Position numbers and translations under genes: made by a program. A stretch of DNA of 52,662 bases from a bacterium D16-76. GTDB lineage: Bacteria > Bacillota > Clostridia > Oscillospirales > Acutalibacteraceae. The notes under the pieces are model-generated. The model saw only the letters and a list, made by a program, of their open reading frames with translations. It was not told the origin of the DNA and did no database searches. The number at the start of each line of letters is the position of its first letter. Position 1 is the first letter of the stretch. Below, in pieces: positions 36,745 through 46,566 of this stretch. The stretch covers positions 1-52,662 of the forward strand of contig QZEE01000025.1 in the NCBI GenBank assembly GCA_009917445.1. Direction: 5' to 3'.

Positions 36745-37350
36745 TTAGCCCTCCCCGTCCCAGTCCACGTCGTACTCTTTGGATACCGCAAACTTGACCA
36801 GCTTGCCGGTGCCCATGTCAAAGTTTAAATCGTACTTGTACGTAAGCCCATAGTGCAGCCACATGGTGTCGTCGCCTGTCCAGTCGGGGTACTTTTCCCC
36901 GGCCAGCTCCCGGGTCCACTGGGACACCGGCACGCCGTCAAAGGCGATCTCTTCCAGCAGCTGGGCGTCCTCCACCCCGGCCAGCTGGAATTCCAGCCGG
37001 GCGATGACGGCCTGGCCCAGGGTGGCGTCCTCTTCACCGGTGGTAAAAGAGATGTTGGCAAAGGCGTTGCCGCCAAGCTGCACATTGCCGCCGGTGTAGT
37101 AGGACTCGGCCTCCAAGACCGTCTCCGGGTCTACCTCTATAGCCTGGTAATTCTCATCGGTCCAGGTCACATGCAGGCCCTGGTCTAAAAGGGACTGCAC
37201 GGTGGTCTCGCCTACCCGCACCTCCGCCCCTTTCAGGGTGATGGGGTAAAGGGCTTCTTCTTCCTTTTCCTCTTCGGCTGCGCAGGCGCCCAGCACCGCT
37301 AAAACCAGTGCCAGGGCCAGGCACAGCAGGGCTTTTACTGTCTTGTTCAT
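36745..37350 (-). CDS. Small secreted lipoprotein, unknown function
   Basis: 201 residues. Signal MNKTVKALLCLALALVLAVL and lipobox LGAC (Cys23), then acidic linker EEEKEEE and a globular beta-rich domain (VRVGETTVQSLLDQGLHVTW, DTMWLHYGLTYKYDLNF). Likely anchored outside the membrane. No named family recognised. Forms a two-gene minus-strand unit with the membrane protein upstream. Confidence 0.75.
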   Translation of the reverse strand: MNKTVKALLCLALALVLAVLGACAAEEEKEEEALYPITLKGAEVRVGETTVQSLLDQGLHVTWTDENYQAIEVDPETVLEAESYYTGGNVQLGGNAFANISFTTGEEDATLGQAVIARLEFQLAGVEDAQLLEEIAFDGVPVSQWTRELAGEKYPDWTGDDTMWLHYGLTYKYDLNFDMGTGKLVKFAVSKEYDVDWDGEG

Positions 37351-37395
37351 GGTCCTTCAGGCTTCCCTTCTGTGTGGATTCCCCCAGCCGCGGCC

Positions 37396-38094
37396 CTACT
37401 GCCCCCCCAGCAGGGCCTGCCCTTTGGGGCAATGGCGGCGGATGAGGGCGTAGGCCTCTTCCAGCTGCTTGGCGTTGTCCAGGTAGAGGGTGGCTTCCGG
37501 GCTTTTGCCGGCCGAGGCCGTGCCGTCCCGGTACCCCACCACCAGGGATACCCCTGTGCCCAGGTTTTGGCGCACCCGGGTTTCGCCCAGGCTATAGCCT
37601 ACCCGGGTGGTTTCCTGCCGGGCACCCAGGCGCTGCATGTCTGCTACCCGGTACACCTGGCAGCCTAAGTCCCGGAAATACAGCCAGTATTCCGGGCCTA
37701 TGGTCAGGCGGGCGGGGTATTTGTCGGTCAGGCGGTTGGCAAAGCTTGCCTGGCCGCACTGGGGGGCCTGGGCGGCAAAGGCCGCCTGGTCCTGGGGGGG
37801 CAGGGCGCTTAGGGCTTTTTCATAAGAGGCCCGGGCCTTTTTTACCGAGACGCTGCGCCCCTGCAGCCAAAAGCACAGCCCCACAAAGGCCGCAAGCCCC
37901 AGGCCGATAGGCAGGTGCAGGGTCAGCACCGTGGAAAGGCCCGCCCCTACCACAAAGCCCAGGGTTACCATGCCGATGACGCATAGGGCCATCCACAGGG
38001 GCAGCTTTTTCATGGTGCCTTTGTTATAGGCTTTCAGGTCTTTTGCAAAGTCCTGCATTTCGGCGTCCAACCAACGGTTTATGTCGTTCCCCAT
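37396..38094 (-). CDS. Two-TM membrane protein, unknown function
   Basis: 232 residues. Short soluble N-terminus, two hydrophobic segments (LPLWMALCVIGMVTLGFVVG and LPIGLGLAAFVGLCFWLQG), then a cytosolic domain with PARLTIGPEYWLYFRDLGCQ and VSLVVGYRDGT, resembling a PH-like beta barrel. No named family. Promoter at 38140-38168; 45 nt upstream of the lipoprotein gene. Confidence 0.7.
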   Translation of the reverse strand: MGNDINRWLDAEMQDFAKDLKAYNKGTMKKLPLWMALCVIGMVTLGFVVGAGLSTVLTLHLPIGLGLAAFVGLCFWLQGRSVSVKKARASYEKALSALPPQDQAAFAAQAPQCGQASFANRLTDKYPARLTIGPEYWLYFRDLGCQVYRVADMQRLGARQETTRVGYSLGETRVRQNLGTGVSLVVGYRDGTASAGKSPEATLYLDNAKQLEEAYALIRRHCPKGQALLGGQ

Positions 38095-38139
38095 TTTAAC
38101 ATCGCCTTCCTTTTGCAGCGGTTTTGGCCGCTAAGCAAT

Positions 38140-38168
38140 AGTATACTCCCTGCCCTTGCAGGTGGCAA
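38140..38168 (-). promoter_or_regulatory. Promoter of the membrane protein/lipoprotein pair
   Basis: On the minus strand TTGCCA, 17-nt spacer, TATACT, 46 nt before the start. Confidence 0.75.
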
Positions 38169-38301
38169 ATAACAAAAGGGTATCAAAGGTTACAAACCGT
38201 TTACAAAATGAAGGTTTTTGGTAGATTTTGGAAGATTGTTACCCTTTTGCTGCCAGAAAAAATGATATAATTAAATTGGATTATTTGGCAGGGGCCAGCG
38301 C

Positions 38302-39915
38302 TTAATTCGCCTTTTTAGCCTGCCAGGTCTTCAGCACGAACAGCGTGCCCACCATCAGCAGGATGGCCACGGGCAGGGCGATAAGGGCGTTGGGCACAAA
38401 GCCCGCGAACAGGTAGGCCGCAAAGCTTACCGCCGCGGCGGTGATCGCGTAGGGCAGCTGGGTGGAGACGTGGTCTACGTGGTCGCACTGGGCCCCGGCG
38501 GAAGCCATAATGGTGGTGTCGGAGATGGGGGAGCAATGGTCGCCGCAGACGGCACCGGCCATGCAGGCCGAAACGCACACCACGCCCAGGGGGTTGGTAA
38601 GGGGGAAGACGCTGAGGGTGATGGGGATGAGGATGCCAAAGGTGCCCCAGCTGGTGCCGGTGGCAAAGGCCAAGAAGCACCCGATAAGGAACACCACCGC
38701 CGGCAGGAAGGCCTGGAACGCCCCGGCAGAGCCCTTTACCACGCCTTCTACAAACGCTTTGGCGCCCAGGGAGTCGGTCATGGCCTTGAGGGACCAGGCA
38801 AAGGTCAAAATGAGGATGGCCGGCACCATGGCCCGGAAGCCTTCGGGGATGCAGTCCATAGTCTGGCGGAAGGTCATGGTCTTGCGCAGGCAGTAGTAGA
38901 GGATGGTAAAGGCCAGGGCAAAGACCGAGCCCAGCATCAGGCCCACCGAGGCGTCGGAGCCGGAAAAGGCGTCTACAAAGGACGTGCCCTCAAAGAAGCC
39001 GCCGGAGTAGATCATGCCGATAACACAGGAGACGATAAGCACCGCAATGGGCAGCACCAGGTCTAAGACGATGCCCTTCTGCTCTTCTTCCTGGGCGGCG
39101 GTGTTGGCGTAGGGGTTTTTGCCGCTGAACAGGTCCCCCTTCTTTTCAGCGTTCTGCTCGAAGCGGGCCATGGGGCCGAACTCCATCTTCATCAGGGCCA
39201 TGCCTACCATCATGATAATGGTGAGGATGGCGTAGAAATTGAAGGGGATGGCCTTGATGAACAGCTCCAGGCCGTTGCCGTCCTCTACATAGCTGGCCAC
39301 GGCCGCCGCCCAGGAGGAAATGGGGGCGATGATGCAGACCGGCGCCGCAGTGGCGTCAATGAGGTAAGCCAGCTTTACCCGGGAGACCTTGTGCTTGTCT
39401 GTAACGGGCCGCATGACAGAGCCTACGGTGAGGCAGTTGAAATAGTCGTCGATGAATATCAGCACGCCCAGGGCCACGGTAGCCAGCTGGGCCCCCACCC
39501 GGGTCTTGATGTGCTGGGCGGCCCAGCGGCCAAAGGCGGCCGAGCCCCCGGCCTTATTCATCAGGGACACCATGGCCCCCAGGATGACCAGGAACACCAG
39601 GATGCCGATGTTGTAGCCGTCGGACAGGACGCTGACAATGCCGTCCTGGAAAACGTGGAGCACGGTGCCCTCGAAATCATAGGCAGAGTAGAGCAGGCCG
39701 CCCATTAAGATGCCCACGAACAGGGAGGAGTACACCTCTTTGGTGATAAGGGCCAGGGCGATGGCCACCACCGGCGGCAGCAGCGCCCAGGGCGTGCCGT
39801 AGAACCCGCCGCCGTCGGCAGCGCTTACCCCGCTGCTTAAAAACAGCGGGATGAGGAACACTGCCAGCAGGATGGCCGCCAGCAGCACCCCTTTTACCAG
39901 GTTTGCTTTTTTCAT
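38302..39915 (-). CDS. lysW: NhaC-family transporter, probable lysine importer (LysW-like)
   Basis: 537 residues with about 12 hydrophobic segments. NhaC-family hallmarks: FIDDYFNCLTVGSVMRP, TAAPVCIIAPISSWA, FATGTSWGTFGIL and AGAVCGDHCSPISDTTI. Annotation by similarity alone would be Na+/H+ antiporter, but a lysine riboswitch with a terminator controls it, and NhaC-like proteins under L-box control (LysW) are predicted lysine transporters. Hence lysine uptake, probably cation-coupled, is favoured. ATG at 39915 follows GAGAGGGAAAAAC; the frame up to 39960 runs through the riboswitch terminator. Confidence 0.88.
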   Translation of the reverse strand: MKKANLVKGVLLAAILLAVFLIPLFLSSGVSAADGGGFYGTPWALLPPVVAIALALITKEVYSSLFVGILMGGLLYSAYDFEGTVLHVFQDGIVSVLSDGYNIGILVFLVILGAMVSLMNKAGGSAAFGRWAAQHIKTRVGAQLATVALGVLIFIDDYFNCLTVGSVMRPVTDKHKVSRVKLAYLIDATAAPVCIIAPISSWAAAVASYVEDGNGLELFIKAIPFNFYAILTIIMMVGMALMKMEFGPMARFEQNAEKKGDLFSGKNPYANTAAQEEEQKGIVLDLVLPIAVLIVSCVIGMIYSGGFFEGTSFVDAFSGSDASVGLMLGSVFALAFTILYYCLRKTMTFRQTMDCIPEGFRAMVPAILILTFAWSLKAMTDSLGAKAFVEGVVKGSAGAFQAFLPAVVFLIGCFLAFATGTSWGTFGILIPITLSVFPLTNPLGVVCVSACMAGAVCGDHCSPISDTTIMASAGAQCDHVDHVSTQLPYAITAAAVSFAAYLFAGFVPNALIALPVAILLMVGTLFVLKTWQAKKAN

Positions 39916-39934
39916 GTTTTTCCCTCTCTCTTGC

Positions 39935-39964
39935 AAAAAAGTCATGACAGAACCTGCCATGACT
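39935..39964 (-). terminator. Riboswitch terminator
   Basis: On the minus strand AGTCATGGCAG-GTT-CTGTCATGACT followed by TTTTT, 20 nt before the transporter start. Confidence 0.9.
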
Positions 39965-39984
39965 CCACAAAACCTTATGAATCA

Positions 39985-40160
39985 CAACAGCGCCCCGCCC
40001 TATACATTCTATATAGGGCGACAGTCCGGGGGATGTTCTCCCGCGGCCCGGCAGGCAAGTGGGCAACGCTTGCCTGCCTCGGCGGAATCCCCTTTCAGCC
40101 TGCCGCCCTTGCCCGGGCTTTGGGGCAGGCTTACTGTTGTCATCCGCGCCTCTATCATGC
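39985..40160 (-). promoter_or_regulatory. Lysine riboswitch (L-box) aptamer
   Basis: Reading the minus strand: GATAGAGGCGCGG, then ACAACAGTAAGCCTGCC, the P2 partner GGCAGGCTGAAAGGGGATTC, CGCCGAGGC, a perfect P3 hairpin GGCAGGCAAG/CTTGCCTGCC, P4 CCGCGGGAGAACATCCCCCGG, ACTGTCGCC and P5 GCCCTATA/TATAGGGC. The order and core segments (GATAGAGG, AGTA, GAAAGGGGA..CGCCGA.GC, CTGTC) match the L-box. Lysine binding should favour the downstream terminator and lower transporter expression. Confidence 0.92.
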
Positions 40161-40168
40161 ATAGGCTT

Positions 40169-40197
40169 ATCATACCCCCTGGGGGGCGGGTTGTCAA
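40169..40197 (-). promoter_or_regulatory. Sigma-A promoter of the riboswitch-controlled transporter
   Basis: On the minus strand TTGACA, 17-nt spacer, TATGAT; transcription would begin near 40162, just before the aptamer. Confidence 0.88.
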
Positions 40198-40248
40198 TAC
40201 GGCTGGGGGAAAAACTTGGCGGATAAGGGCGGCGGGGGAAAAAAAGGC

Positions 40249-40277
40249 TTGCAATTTACGTGGTTACGTGGTATGAT
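40249..40277 (+). promoter_or_regulatory. Sigma-A promoter of rpsT
   Basis: TTGCAA, 17-nt spacer, TATGAT, 44 nt before rpsT. Confidence 0.8.
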
Positions 40278-40321
40278 AATGGCTGTGCAAATGGTAAACG
40301 GAAAACAAGGAGGTGTGACGG

Positions 40322-40582
40322 ATGCCAAATATTAAATCGGCGAAGAAGCGCGTAAAGGTCATCAGCACAAAGACCATGCAGAACCGGGCTACCAGCTCCC
40401 GGCTGAAGACGGAGATCAAGAAGGCCAATGCGGCCCTTGAGAGCAATGCGGAGAACAAGGCGGAGGCTGTGCGCGCGGCCGTAAAGAAGATCGACCAGGC
40501 TGCGGCCAAGGGGATCCTCCATAAGAACACCGCTGCCAGGAAGAAATCTGCCCTGGATAAGAAGCTGCACGCCAGCCTGTAA
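40322..40582 (+). CDS. rpsT: Ribosomal protein S20
   Basis: 86 residues, normal length, very basic. MPNIKSAKKRVKVISTK, NRATSSRLKTEIKKA and the C-terminal KGILHKNTAARKKSALDKKL are the S20 signature. Binds 16S rRNA in the 30S body. RBS AAGGAGGTGTGACGG. Single-gene unit ended by a terminator. Confidence 0.97.
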   Translation: MPNIKSAKKRVKVISTKTMQNRATSSRLKTEIKKANAALESNAENKAEAVRAAVKKIDQAAAKGILHKNTAARKKSALDKKLHASL

Positions 40583-40631
40583 GGGACGGCATTTTTACGG
40601 GGCCGCACAGGACCCGAGGCTATAAGGGCTT

Positions 40632-40658
40632 GCCGCCCCCAGGGGCGGGGGCCTTTTT
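40632..40658 (+). terminator. rpsT terminator
   Basis: CCGCCCC/GGGGCGG with inner CAG, then CCTTTTTGCTTTT. Confidence 0.8.
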
Positions 40659-40724
40659 GCTTTTGCGGCCTGGGGGCGGCTTAGCGAAAATAGCGGGCAA
40701 AGGGAAAAAGAGGCAGAAACCCCC

Positions 40725-40879: not shown

Positions 40880-40953
40880 GCGGGTGTAGTTCAATGGTAG
40901 AACCCCAGCCTTCCAAGCTGGTCGTGTGGGTTCGATTCCCATCACCCGCTCCA
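40880..40953 (+). tRNA. tRNA-Gly(TCC)
   Basis: GCGGGTG/CACCCGC acceptor, anticodon stem CCAGC/GCTGG with loop CTTCCAA (TCC), encoded CCA. Confidence 0.95.
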
Positions 40954-41032
40954 ATTTTTGTGTGCAGGGTTATGCTTTGTGCTGAGAGGCGCCTGGGCTG
41001 CCGGGCGTGGGGATGTTTCCCCCTATTATAAT

Positions 41033-41109
41033 GCGCCAATAGCTCAGCTGGATAGAGCAACTGCCTTCTAAGCAGTAGGCCAGGGGTTCGAGTCCCTTTT
41101 GGCGCGCCA
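41033..41109 (+). tRNA. tRNA-Arg(TCT)
   Basis: GCGCCAA/TTGGCGC acceptor, stem ACTGC/GCAGT with loop CTTCTAA (TCT), T-arm GGTTCGAGTCC, encoded CCA. Confidence 0.95.
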
Positions 41110-41113
41110 ATAT

Positions 41114-41191
41114 GGTGGATGTAGCTTAGCTGGTTAAAGCGCCAGATTGTGGCTCTGGAGACCGAGGGTTCGAATCCCTTCACCCACCCCA
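41114..41191 (+). tRNA. tRNA-His(GTG)
   Basis: Extra G-1 pairs with C73; anticodon stem CCAGA/TCTGG with loop TTGTGGC (GTG); encoded CCA. The acceptor has one A-C mismatch (fifth pair). Confidence 0.93.
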
Positions 41192-41242
41192 CCTAATGAA
41201 CGCGGAGTTTAATTCTTGCAATTAGGCTCCGTGTTCCCATAT

Positions 41243-41318
41243 TGGGCTGTCGCCAAGCGGTAAGGCAACGGACTTTGACTCCGTCATCCCGTGGGTTCGA
41301 ATCCCGCCAGCCCAGCCA
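41243..41318 (+). tRNA. tRNA-Gln(TTG)
   Basis: TGGGCTG/CAGCCCA acceptor, stem ACGGA/TCCGT with loop CTTTGAC (TTG), T-arm GGTTCGAATCC, encoded CCA. Last gene before the accessory region C. Confidence 0.95.
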
Positions 41319-41643: not shown

Positions 41644-44600
41644 TTGTTGGTAATGGTGAATAGCTTCAGCTATTCCAACTCGAACGGCGGAGCTGGCAAC
41701 CATACCAACGCCGGAACCGTCACCGTGACCGTCACCGCCAGGGCAGACGGCAATTATTCCGGCTTTAACAGCACGGCGACCTTCACCATCGCACCCAAGG
41801 AATTGACTCCAAAAATCACAGGAGCCGCCACGAAAACCTATGACGGCGGCACAACCTGCGATGGCAGGGGCCTGTCAATTACGCTGGATGGCCTTTTGGA
41901 AGCTGACACTGGTAACGTGACCGCCACCGCAAGCTATGTCTACGCCGACAAAAACGTGGGGACGGATAAGACTATCAATGCCAGCGGTATCACTTTGGAC
42001 GGTGCCAGCAAGGACAATTATGTTCTGTCCAAAACCACTGCCACGGCCAATGTTGGGATGATCATAAGAGCTACTGTCAATATCATCTGGGGCAACGAGT
42101 CACAGACCATGACCTATAACGGCACCCAGGCCACGATCACCGAGCCAACGGTCAGTGCCGAGAGTGGCGTGACCGTCAGTGTGTCCCCCAAATATTCCTA
42201 CGCAGCGCAGGATAGCACCGATTTTAAGGACGGCCTGCCCATCAACGCGGGAACTTACACCGTCCGGGCCAGCATTGCGGAGAGCGACAACCTGACCGCC
42301 GCCCAAGCGGATACGACCTTGACCATCAACAAGGCCGCCCTGACTGTCAGCGGTGCGACCATCAAGTCCAAGTCCTACGATACCACCAAGACGGCCACCG
42401 TGTCCGGCGTGACCTTCACCGGGCTGAAAAACGGCGAGATGCTGGCCCTAGGCACAGATTACACCGCCACCGGCACCTTTGCGGATGCAAACGTCGGGGA
42501 GGGTAAGAGTGTCACCGTCACCGTGACCCTGGCTAACACAGCAAAGGCGAACAATTATAATCTAACTCCAAACACAACTACGGCCACCGCCGACATCACC
42601 AAGGCCGATCCCGTGGTGACGGATGTTTCCGTGAGCAGCCCTGACCCGATCTACGAATCCGTCAGCTTGAACAACATTACCCTGACCCATGGGGCAGGCG
42701 ACACGGCGGGAACTGTCGCGCTGGACCCCAGCCAGACGCTGACGGTTGGGACGAAGGGGTACGCCTGGACATTCACGCCAACTGACACCGACAATTATAA
42801 CACCGCCACCGGGACAATTTCCCTGACCGTGGCGGTAGACGCCCTGCAAAGCATTGCCGTCACCACCCCGCCGACCAAAACCACCTATACCTACGGCGAG
42901 AGCTTTGATAAGGCGGGCATGGTGATCACGGCAATCTACGCCAGCGGCGCGACCAAGGTCGTGACGGGTGAAGTGCAGATCAGCCCCGCCGAGTTGACTG
43001 TCACCACCACCGAGCTGATCATCACCTACCAGGGCAAGACCGTCACCCAGGCGATTACTGTCGGCCCCAAGGAGGTTACGAATCCCACCATTGAACTGTC
43101 CCCCACCACGTTTGTCTATGACGGCGCTGAAAAGAAGCCCGCTGTCACTGTGAAGGACGGCGAGAAGGTGATCCCGGCTGACGAATACACAGTAGAGTAC
43201 AGCAACAACACCAACGTGGGCACCACCGCCACCGTCACTATTACCGACAAGACGGGCGGCAACTACACCGTCAGCGGCACCACGACTTTCACCATCACCG
43301 CCAAGCCCCTCACCGGGGCGAAGGTGGAAACCACAGGCACGTTTACCTACACCGGGAACGCCCTTACGCCAGCGCCTACCGTGACCCTGGACGGGAAAAC
43401 GCTGACGGAGAACACCGACTACACTGTGGCCTATGACAAGAACACCGACGCTGGCACCGCGACTATCACCGTCACGGGCAAAGGCAACTACTCCGGCACC
43501 GCCCAGGGCACCTTTACCATCGGCAGGGCCGACCTGACCGTGGACGGCACCGGCACCGCCAGCGGCACCTATGGCGATAAGCTGTCCGAGCTGACCATTT
43601 CCGGCCTGACCGCCAAGCTGGGCGAGGCCCCGGTGACAGGCACCTGGAAGCTGACCGGGGACGCCGTGCCCAACGTGGGGGACAGCGGCGAGTACACCGC
43701 CACTTTCACCCCGGCTATCGGCGCGGACAACTACAACGCGCTGGAGGCCAAGGTGACGCTGAACATCGCCCAAGCCACGGCTCCAACTCCGCAGACCGGG
43801 ACGCTGAATGTGCAGAACGGCCATGCCAGGGAGTACACCTATGATCTCAGCCGTCTGCTCCCCGTTTTGGCAAGCGGGCAGAGCTTTGGGGGCGAAGTGA
43901 CCTATACGCTGAAAACGGTCAACATCACCGAGGCGGGCTACTACGACATTGATACAGCGGCCATCAGCGGCACAACGCTGACGCTGCCGGTCAAGGCGGT
44001 GGAGTCCACCACCGAGAGTAGTATCGGCACCATCGTCGTGATAATCTCCTCCAAAAACTTTGCCGATGTGGACGCGACCATCAATGTCAACCGCGTCAAC
44101 AAGCAGCCTGTGAGTATTGAGGGCGTGACCGCGAAGAACGGCACCTACAACGGCAGTACGCATAACGGCTACACCGGCACACCCACTGCCTCGCCGTATA
44201 GCGGAGGTTTCACAACTACCTATGCTACGGCGGACGGAACGGCCCTGAGCGGCCCGCCCACCAATGCGGGCGACTACACCGTGACATTCTCTTTAGATCC
44301 CAACGACACCTACACCGGCAGCCGTACCCTCAGTTTCACCATCAGCAAAGCCAGTATCACCATCAAAGCGGACGACAAGCGGGCCGACGTAGGCGCCGCA
44401 AAGCCCGCCCTGACCTATACCGTGACCGGGCTTGTGAGCGGGGACACGCTGGCCACCGCACCCACCCTGGCCTGTGACGCGGATATGAACACCATAGGCC
44501 AGTACCCCATCACCGCCAGCGGCGCGGCTGTCCCCAGCGGCGGCAACTACAACACGGCCATCACCTATGTACCGGGGACGTTGAGTGTCACCGATCCGAC

Positions 44601-45867
44601 CATCCCTGTCACCGGTGTCACGCTGAACAAGACCAGCACGACCCTGACCGTGGGCGGCTCGGAGCGGCTGACCGCCACCGTTGCCCCCAGCGACGCCACC
44701 GACAAGAGCGTGACCTGGGCATCCAGCAATACCGCCGTCGCCACGGTGGACAGCAGCGGGAACGTCACCGCCATCGGCTCGGGCAGCGCCACCATCACCG
44801 TCACCACAGCAGACGGGGCCAAGACCGCTACCTGCACCGTCACCGTCAGAACCAACAGCAGCGGAGGCGGCAGTTATGTACCCTCCGGCCCCGGCAGTTC
44901 CACCATCACCGTTCCTGTGTCCGGGGACAAAAGCACCGTCCACGTCAGCGCCAGCGTGTCCGGCACCACCGCCACCGTGAGCAAGATCGACACCTCACAA
45001 ATCGAGAATGTCATCGGGGACAACGGGCAGGCCAGCATGGTGGAGATTGACTTTACTGGCCTGGGCAAGACCATCGACACGGTGAAGCTGCCCGCCGCCG
45101 CCATCAAGTATATTGCGGCAAAGGCGCAGAACGAGGAAGTCGGGGGCCTGACGGTCAAGCTCCCGGAGGCTGAAATCTCCTTTGACGCCAATGCCCTCTC
45201 CGCAATCCAGGCCCAGGCAGGCAGTCAAATCACCCTGACCGTCACCCCGGCCAAGCCCGCCGACCTCAACAGCAGGCAGAAAGAGGCCGTGGGCAGCGCC
45301 CCGGTATTCGATCTGACACTGCGGAGCAGCAGCGGGGCCATCACCGACTTCCGGGGCGGCTATGCCACCGTGTCCCTGCCGTACACCCTGGCGGCGGGAC
45401 AGAACCCCTCCGGCGTGGTGGTGTACTATCTGGACAGCACCGGCAATATCACCCCCTGCCCCACCATGTACGATGTGCGGAGCAAGTCGGCCATCTTCAC
45501 TACCGGCCACCTGTCCCTGTACTTTGTGGGTTATGATCCTGCGGCGGTATGGGTGAACCCGTTCTCCGATGTGGCCGGGGACGCATGGTATTATGACGCG
45601 GTGCGGTATGCCAGTGAAAACGGTCTGATGGGCGGTTACGGCAACGGGATGTTTGGCCCGAATGATAACCTCTCCCGCGCCCAATTCGCTCAAATCCTCT
45701 TTAACAAAGAGGGTAGGCCGGTTGTCAATTATCTGTTGCGGTACAACGATGTGGCAGACGGCGCATGGTACACCGAGGCTGTCCGCTGGGCCACCAGCCA
45801 GGGCGTTGTGAGCGGCTACGGCAACGGGATGTTCGGCCCCAATGACAATATCACCCGTGAGCAGTAC
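41644..45867 (+). pseudogene. MBG/BIG2/SLH-domain surface protein, N-terminus missing and C-terminus cut
   Basis: About 1408 residues. A long series of MBG-type repeats (for example YTGNALTPAPTVTLDGKTL, YDKNTDAGTATITVTGKGNY, KSYDTTKTATVSGVTF) is followed by a bacterial Ig-like group 2 domain (VTGVTLNKTSTTLTVGGSE ... VTWASSNTAVATVDSSGNVT), a Ser/Gly linker, a distinct beta-rich domain ending GHLSLYFVGYDP, and two SLH repeats (NPFSDVAGDAWYYDAVRYA; YNDVADGAWYTEAVRWA). SLH domains bind cell-wall polymers. The second SLH repeat breaks off at NITREQY, and no signal peptide is present. It was probably a very large wall-bound adhesin. Confidence 0.85.
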
Positions 45868-46566
45868 TGCCGGGTGTCTACCGACAGCGAGGAGCAGCTC
45901 AACAGCTACGACGCCCAAAAGGCTTACTACACCCAGAAGATTGGGGAAAATCCCGATTGGGAGATGGCTGGGATCTTTGCCGACAAAGGCATCACCGGGA
46001 CGAGTCTGAAAAAGCGGGCGGAGTTCAACCGCATGATTGCCGCCTGCAAACGGGGCCGCATCGACATGATCCTCACCAAGTCCGCCTCCCGCTTCGCCCG
46101 AAACACGGTGGACTGCCTCAAGGTGATCCGCACCCTCAAGAGCAGGGGTATCGCCGTGATCTTTGAAAAGGAAAACATTAACACCCTGACGGAGTCCAGC
46201 GAGTTCCTGATCACCCTGTTTAGCAGCTTTTCTCAGGCGGAGAGCGAGTCCATGAGCCTGAACATCATTCCAGGTATACGCCAGAGTATGAAGGAGGGCA
46301 ATGTCCCTTTCCAATACAGCCGGACGCTGGGCTACCGCAGGGGGCCGGACGGCAAACCTACTCACCAGCCCGGCCAGCAGAAGCATGGCAGCAGGCACAA
46401 CATATTTCCTGGGGTGGTGCCAGAGATCGCTTTCGGTTTTCCACCCCCGGATAGGGCAGTACCACTCCAACAGTACGGATCCGATTGCGCTCAACAGGGC
46501 AAAGGAGATTGCTGTTATAACATGGAGAGGAATAACTCCGCCAATCCCAATTTGCCAGCTGCATAG
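41644..46566 (+). CDS. Chimeric open frame: surface protein fused to serine recombinase catalytic part
   Basis: One uninterrupted 1640-codon frame with three sources: residues 1-1408 MBG/Ig-like/SLH surface protein without an N-terminus; about 1409-1574 a resolvase-type catalytic domain; the last about 66 codons antisense to an ABC permease. It begins at a TTG with no ribosome site, after an open stretch that lacks any start codon, and there is no signal peptide. So expression as a surface protein is unlikely. Likely a recombination scar or assembly chimera; components are listed separately. Confidence 0.6.
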   Translation: MLVMVNSFSYSNSNGGAGNHTNAGTVTVTVTARADGNYSGFNSTATFTIAPKELTPKITGAATKTYDGGTTCDGRGLSITLDGLLEADTGNVTATASYVYADKNVGTDKTINASGITLDGASKDNYVLSKTTATANVGMIIRATVNIIWGNESQTMTYNGTQATITEPTVSAESGVTVSVSPKYSYAAQDSTDFKDGLPINAGTYTVRASIAESDNLTAAQADTTLTINKAALTVSGATIKSKSYDTTKTATVSGVTFTGLKNGEMLALGTDYTATGTFADANVGEGKSVTVTVTLANTAKANNYNLTPNTTTATADITKADPVVTDVSVSSPDPIYESVSLNNITLTHGAGDTAGTVALDPSQTLTVGTKGYAWTFTPTDTDNYNTATGTISLTVAVDALQSIAVTTPPTKTTYTYGESFDKAGMVITAIYASGATKVVTGEVQISPAELTVTTTELIITYQGKTVTQAITVGPKEVTNPTIELSPTTFVYDGAEKKPAVTVKDGEKVIPADEYTVEYSNNTNVGTTATVTITDKTGGNYTVSGTTTFTITAKPLTGAKVETTGTFTYTGNALTPAPTVTLDGKTLTENTDYTVAYDKNTDAGTATITVTGKGNYSGTAQGTFTIGRADLTVDGTGTASGTYGDKLSELTISGLTAKLGEAPVTGTWKLTGDAVPNVGDSGEYTATFTPAIGADNYNALEAKVTLNIAQATAPTPQTGTLNVQNGHAREYTYDLSRLLPVLASGQSFGGEVTYTLKTVNITEAGYYDIDTAAISGTTLTLPVKAVESTTESSIGTIVVIISSKNFADVDATINVNRVNKQPVSIEGVTAKNGTYNGSTHNGYTGTPTASPYSGGFTTTYATADGTALSGPPTNAGDYTVTFSLDPNDTYTGSRTLSFTISKASITIKADDKRADVGAAKPALTYTVTGLVSGDTLATAPTLACDADMNTIGQYPITASGAAVPSGGNYNTAITYVPGTLSVTDPTIPVTGVTLNKTSTTLTVGGSERLTATVAPSDATDKSVTWASSNTAVATVDSSGNVTAIGSGSATITVTTADGAKTATCTVTVRTNSSGGGSYVPSGPGSSTITVPVSGDKSTVHVSASVSGTTATVSKIDTSQIENVIGDNGQASMVEIDFTGLGKTIDTVKLPAAAIKYIAAKAQNEEVGGLTVKLPEAEISFDANALSAIQAQAGSQITLTVTPAKPADLNSRQKEAVGSAPVFDLTLRSSSGAITDFRGGYATVSLPYTLAAGQNPSGVVVYYLDSTGNITPCPTMYDVRSKSAIFTTGHLSLYFVGYDPAAVWVNPFSDVAGDAWYYDAVRYASENGLMGGYGNGMFGPNDNLSRAQFAQILFNKEGRPVVNYLLRYNDVADGAWYTEAVRWATSQGVVSGYGNGMFGPNDNITREQYCRVSTDSEEQLNSYDAQKAYYTQKIGENPDWEMAGIFADKGITGTSLKKRAEFNRMIAACKRGRIDMILTKSASRFARNTVDCLKVIRTLKSRGIAVIFEKENINTLTESSEFLITLFSSFSQAESESMSLNIIPGIRQSMKEGNVPFQYSRTLGYRRGPDGKPTHQPGQQKHGSRHNIFPGVVPEIAFGFPPPDRAVPLQQYGSDCAQQGKGDCCYNMERNNSANPNLPAA
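45868..46365 (+). pseudogene. Serine recombinase (resolvase/TnpX type), catalytic-domain fragment
   Basis: About 166 codons. YCRVSTDSEEQLNSYDAQ carries the catalytic serine (RVSTD), followed by GIFADKGITGTSLKKRAEFN, then LTKSASRFARNTVDCL with the conserved arginines, and ESESMSLNI then LGYRRGPDGKP. This is the N-terminal catalytic domain plus the start of the recombinase domain of large serine recombinases that move Tn5397/Tn4451-like elements. The first about 12 residues and the whole DNA-binding C-terminus are missing, so it should be inactive alone. Confidence 0.88.

Follow-up and report, generated by a model that had tools for sequence, protein, structure and literature searches.

It is highly probable that a lysine-sensing transcriptional OFF switch controls an NhaC-superfamily lysine transporter, most likely a cation-coupled importer, in bacterium D16-76. 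The switch and the gene are on the minus strand of the window, which is the whole stretch of 52,662 nucleotides that was analysed (contig QZEE01000025.1). The sequence-only reading had proposed a full promoter-aptamer-terminator unit at 39935-40197. All of these parts are found there, ahead of the gene and in the order proposed, and the interval spans from the -35 box through the end of the T run (Table 1).

Table 1. Features of the lysine riboswitch leader and the transporter gene, in the order of transcription.
Feature	Position in the window	Strand	Basis or remark
Sigma-70-type promoter: TTGACA (40197-40192), 17 nt, TATGAT (40174-40169)	40169..40197	-	Pattern scan, 11/12 consensus matches
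Lysine riboswitch aptamer (L-box, RF00168)	39980..40162	-	Full-length match, 98.3 bits
P1 5' arm CAUGAUAG	40152..40159	-	Helix analysis of the leader
Loop L2 segment GGGCAA, predicted to kiss L3	40109..40114	-	Coordinates counted by hand
Loop L3 segment UUGCCC, predicted to kiss L2	40061..40066	-	Coordinates counted by hand
G in place of A	39994	-	A in the other 11 genus orthologs; beside the lysine pocket
P1 3' arm CUGUUGUG	39983..39990	-	The extension to 39980 is also the antiterminator 5' arm
Terminator 5' arm, also the antiterminator 3' arm	39964-39954	-	Helix analysis
Intrinsic terminator hairpin, 11 bp, 3-nt loop	39940..39964	-	T run 39939-39935 (5 T)
NhaC-superfamily (PF03553) transporter, 537 aa, predicted lysine transporter (LysW-like)	38302..39915	-	Profile matches, ortholog starts, model

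A covariance-model search with the Rfam Lysine family had been proposed for 39980-40165 of the minus strand. RF00168 matches at 40162-39980 with 98.3 bits (gathering score 30, E 6e-25), and the alignment is full length, covering model positions 1-182 of 182. The core segments of the aptamer agree with the RF00168 consensus, except for the G at 39994. The predicted L2-L3 kissing contact, GGGCAA/UUGCCC, consists of six pairs. Six L2-L3 pairs are also seen in the solved T. maritima aptamer (PMC3764141, in the available part). Among the 12 genus sequences, at least six kissing pairs are present in 11, and G010 has four; in G006 and G001, the contact is kept with quite different letters. The controls for the kissing loop are weak, because the loop letters are common to most genus members: at least six pairs are also found in 89 of 132 non-cognate loop pairs and in 448 of 1200 shuffles.

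The sequence TTGACA-17-TATGAT is the best of five promoter-like sites in 38000-40700, where shuffles give 1.2 on average. As judged by eye, TTGAC(A/T) and a -10-like box precede the aptamer in the nine genus orthologs inspected, which are those other than L033, L034, and L038. The terminator hairpin corresponds to AGUCAUGGCAG-GUU-CUGUCAUGACU (39964-39940, minus strand). It has an energy of -14.3 kcal/mol, a value never reached when the 40-nt stretch was dinucleotide-shuffled 2000 times. This hairpin is absent from the list of a generic terminator pattern scan of the leader region, probably because G-U pairing carries the stem on into the T run. The start codon of the transporter gene is most likely ATG 39915, since tblastn alignments begin at residue 1 in 10 of the 11 genus orthologs (residue 8 in the remaining one). 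The alternative start of a longer ORF, 39960, falls within the terminator.

The P1 3' arm runs on into CUGUUGUGAUU, and 10 to 11 positions of this region are pairable with the terminator 5' arm, AGUCAUGGCAG. P1 together with the terminator is therefore mutually exclusive with the antiterminator. The same exclusive sharing of strands among P1, the antiterminator, and the terminator is observed in 12 of 12 genus sequences (that of D16-76 included), with energies of -10.2 to -12.0 kcal/mol for the antiterminators and -12.1 to -15.3 kcal/mol for the terminators. These 12 sequences are close relatives and represent conservation, not 12 independent tests. For the leader of D16-76 itself, 2000 shuffles equalled the terminator energy 0 times, the antiterminator energy 10 times, and both jointly 0 times. 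When the leader is folded as it stands before the terminator 3' arm, the antiterminator (-97.2) is ahead of P1 (-92.9) by about 4 kcal/mol. For the full-length leader, the energy model places the two states within 2 kcal/mol of each other, as expected for a switch that can be tipped by a ligand.

In known L-boxes, lysine binding stabilises P1, and thus lysine should turn the gene off. RNA polymerase would start just 3' of the -10 box and transcribe the aptamer. With little lysine, the P1 3' arm (CUGUUGUGAUU) would pair with the terminator 5' arm (AGUCAUGGCAG). This antiterminator pairing would block the terminator, and the transporter gene would be transcribed. With lysine bound, P1 would be held, the terminator would form, and transcription would end ahead of the gene. 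We infer that the leader is a lysine-OFF transcriptional switch, which would bind lysine and terminate transcription in the cell. The L-box of Bacillus subtilis lysC, a terminator/antiterminator switch, has the lysine aptamer and the OFF logic in common with this leader, but it precedes a biosynthetic gene, whereas the gene here encodes a transporter. The L-boxes of the biosynthetic operons of B. subtilis and E. coli are described as OFF switches in the available part of PMC11477304. The OFF logic favours import of the substrate, and does not prove the direction.

The G at 39994 deserves attention. From the matching of the numbering, the base is probably the equivalent of A162 in the T. maritima aptamer. 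There, A162 is paired to G141, within the purine quartet that underlies the lysine pocket as its floor (PMC3764141, in part). In 93 surveyed L-boxes, the equivalent base as located by a simple motif is A in 83, G in two (D16-76 included), and T in one, and seven are outside the motif. The G could weaken lysine binding; it is also possible that it is a sequencing error. If lysine sensing has been weakened, the riboswitch might be a decaying remnant and the gene effectively unregulated. The restriction of G to D16-76 among the 12 genus sequences, its rarity in the survey, and the position of the equivalent base in the quartet under the pocket would all be in line with decay. On the other hand, the 98.3-bit aptamer is full length, and the promoter, P1, the kissing loop, the antiterminator, and the terminator are all present. 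The other surveyed L-box with G is L063, and A162 is not among the nucleotides named as highly conserved in the available text of PMC3764141. We consider such decay very unlikely.

The gene behind the unit had been read as an NhaC-family transporter, and the 537-aa protein does match PF03553 (Na_H_antiporter), with 181.6 bits against a cut-off of 23. It is the only PF03553 match in the genome. Similarity to three NCBIfam models is detectable, and all the scores are far under the cut-offs: 37.7 bits against 370 for TIGR00931 (the NhaC equivalog), 39.7 against 650 for NF052307 (the ArcD arginine/ornithine antiporter), and 185.9 against 750 for NF000013 (Tet(35)). A PDB sequence search with the transporter returned no chain up to E 1. 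The AlphaFold2 model has a mean pLDDT of 80.2 and a pTM of 0.79. In Foldseek, the model is matched to an integrative model of MleN and to the carriers INDY, TRAP SiaQM, ArsB, and YdaH, which presumably group in the IT superfamily. The quality of the matches is modest (TM 0.56 at best, rmsd 7.2), and the top one is itself to an integrative model. The antiporter NapA is placed far lower in the ranking (E 0.26, TM 0.13).

The family name of PF03553 would fit a true Na+/H+ antiporter, acting in pH or sodium homeostasis. Lysine would then be a proxy, with lysine decarboxylase consuming protons at high lysine. Such a proxy role is discussed for NhaC of C. difficile in PMC11477304, and a role in pH is mentioned in PMC5584792 (both in the parts available). 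The genome contains one protein of the OKR decarboxylase family (OKR_DC_1, PF01276, 103.5 bits), and this decarboxylase fragment has no match among NCBIfam models at 1e-10. Homeostasis as the function is nevertheless very unlikely in our view, given the low score against the NhaC equivalog, the placement of the structural model with IT-superfamily carriers far above NapA, albeit by modest matches, and the position of the other L-box of the genome, which precedes a biosynthetic operon.

Two L-boxes are found in the genome, and the second lies upstream of asd-dapA-dapB. About 430 nt separate the second aptamer from asd, including one frame of 141 codons. Behind these three genes stands a separate fragment (1697-2161 of locus L182, minus strand) that resembles the regulatory end of aspartate kinase. 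It scores up to 69.5 bits, under all cut-offs, and might be a lysine-sensing subunit or partner. An assignment of an L-box to queA (locus L001) was rejected, since the switch is actually on the minus strand, upstream of asd-dapA-dapB, and queA is divergent. Lysine fermentation through the aminomutase route is not supported as the purpose of the transporter, as the genome has no match to the KamA family (TIGR00238). The picture of the genome is that of a small lysine regulon, composed of lysine synthesis and the predicted lysine transporter.

Other features of the neighbourhood are as follows. Downstream of the transporter gene, two frames of 232 and 201 aa (36745-38094, minus strand) have no Pfam or NCBIfam match at E 0.001, and they are followed by a gene for GTP-type PEP carboxykinase. 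On the plus strand, four tRNA genes (Gly-TCC, Arg-TCT, His-GTG, and Gln-TTG; 40880-41318) lie between rpsT and a frame combining SLH repeats with a recombinase. The tRNA cluster is a possible landing site for mobile DNA. The latter frame (41644-46566, plus strand) is a single one of 1640 aa, in which Ig-like/MBG and SLH repeats are joined to a serine-recombinase domain (Resolvase PF00239, profile positions 4-144 of 145). Either a gene fusion through an insertion or deletion or an error of the assembly may explain this frame.

The pairing of the L-box with the transporter is conserved among close relatives. In a set of 60 genomes (D16-76 and relatives), L-boxes are found in 41 and matches to the transporter protein in 34. 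All 12 genus proteins with at least 82% identity (that of D16-76 included) have an L-box directly upstream. Five of those genomes also have second copies of ~50% identity, which are without an L-box as judged by coordinates. From a collection of titled genomes, the best 80 of at least 589 relatives were retained (62-79% identity), and in 44 of these 80 an L-box lies directly upstream on the same strand (11, 17, 9, and 7 per 20). When four relatives with too little upstream DNA (L115, L160, L175, and L180) are set aside, the proportion is 44 of 76, and the other 32 have no L-box match. One of the 44, L171, is a weak match (43.4 bits). The carriers include Oscillibacter valericigenes An860, Blautia hansenii, Dorea phocaeensis, Mordavella massiliensis, and three Spirochaetota assemblies. 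The loci of the 80 relatives contain no other amino-acid riboswitch or T-box above the gathering score, and the same is true of T-boxes in 100 scanned loci. On a larger scale, a phylum-level survey of 299 genomes found L-boxes in at least 177 and PF03553 in at least 153, and at least 18 neighbouring pairs were counted by eye among the matches listed, with the pair of D16-76 excluded.

Terminator-like hairpins, as detected by a scanner allowing bulges, are present in 37 of the 44 L-box leaders, compared with 43 of 220 shuffles and 10 of the 32 upstream stretches of unlinked relatives. Stricter scanners detected terminators in 19 of 44 (an antiterminator in five of them) and in 10 of 44 (an antiterminator in eight; shuffles 2 of 132). 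An antiterminator of -7 kcal/mol or lower is seen in 29 of the 37 distant leaders with terminators, and this survey says little, because shuffled upstream arms reach that value in 415 of 740 cases.

The sequence-only reading had predicted lysine, not sodium homeostasis, as the context of the transporter. This prediction is strengthened by the linkage in the 12 genus members and in 44 of the best 80 relatives, and by the other genomic L-box at asd-dapA-dapB. Lysine regulation would also suit a lysine-related solute as the substrate, for example arginine/ornithine, cadaverine in exchange, or diaminopimelate, and ArcD is one of the weak matches. Its score is far below the ArcD cut-off, however, and with L-box linkage in many relatives, lysine is the simplest reading. 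We thus regard a related solute as unlikely and lysine as the predicted substrate.

A quick tree of 105 rows was composed of 76 of the best 80 relatives and 29 of 67 earlier rows, and has some long branches. In this tree, the D16-76 protein belongs to a branch in which 18 of 18 rows have an L-box (SH-aLRT 96). A smaller earlier tree, with 58 of the 67 rows after removal of L054 (wrong ORF), eight near-copies, and L061 (internal stop), had suggested that the near relatives are mostly without the switch; the 18 of 18 branch overturned this. The L-box label changes 11 times on the 58-row tree and 17 times on the 105-row tree, where at least 11 changes are forced by well-supported branches. Gain and loss of the L-box are not separable on either tree. 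Because 17 changes are needed, L-box control and the protein do not strictly travel together. A second L-box-linked group (L064, L066, L069, L075, L078, and L079) is apart from the branch of D16-76, with switch-less clades between them. It can be speculated that separate branches of the NhaC superfamily acquired their L-boxes on at least two independent occasions. The branch of D16-76, composed of Oscillospiraceae, Lachnospiraceae, and some Spirochaetota, would then be a second lysine-transporter lineage beside the other group. This scenario is tentative, and we are inclined to doubt it.

The sequence-only reading had also linked the gene to the LysW prediction, of which Rodionov et al. 2003 is reportedly the source paper. 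The accord is real, as NhaC-type genes under L-box control are already in print (PMC5584792 and PMC11477304, in the parts available), which makes the earlier finding less surprising. In the accessible text of PMC5584792, L-box-regulated NhaC-type genes are predicted to be lysine transporters and called lysW, and lysW is referred to as a candidate lysine transporter in that of PMC545781. LysW (COG1757; PMC5584792, in part) and the protein described here are alike in being NhaC-superfamily proteins encoded directly behind a lysine riboswitch. The D16-76 protein is on a branch apart from the second L-box-linked NhaC-type group, and either group might hold the published LysW proteins. C. difficile CD1655, an NhaC-like gene behind a lysine riboswitch, has a like arrangement; a review of C. 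difficile riboswitches, in its available part, regards what NhaC does in such a setting as unknown (PMC11477304). The NhaC-family transporters under tyrosine T-boxes (PMC2494555, in part) are a parallel case. Their amino-acid substrate was also predicted from the RNA regulator, although that regulator is a T-box for tyrosine and here it is an L-box. A literature search covering titles and the beginnings of abstracts turned up no experiment on lysine uptake by an NhaC-family protein.

The pairing of L-box and NhaC is thus already in print. What is mildly new is its commonness in the branch of D16-76 and the presence of at least two separated L-box-linked groups. The leader provides a substrate prediction for a transporter that homology alone would label as a Na+/H+ antiporter. 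Many of its relatives in Oscillospiraceae and Lachnospiraceae, along with a few Spirochaetota, share the pairing.
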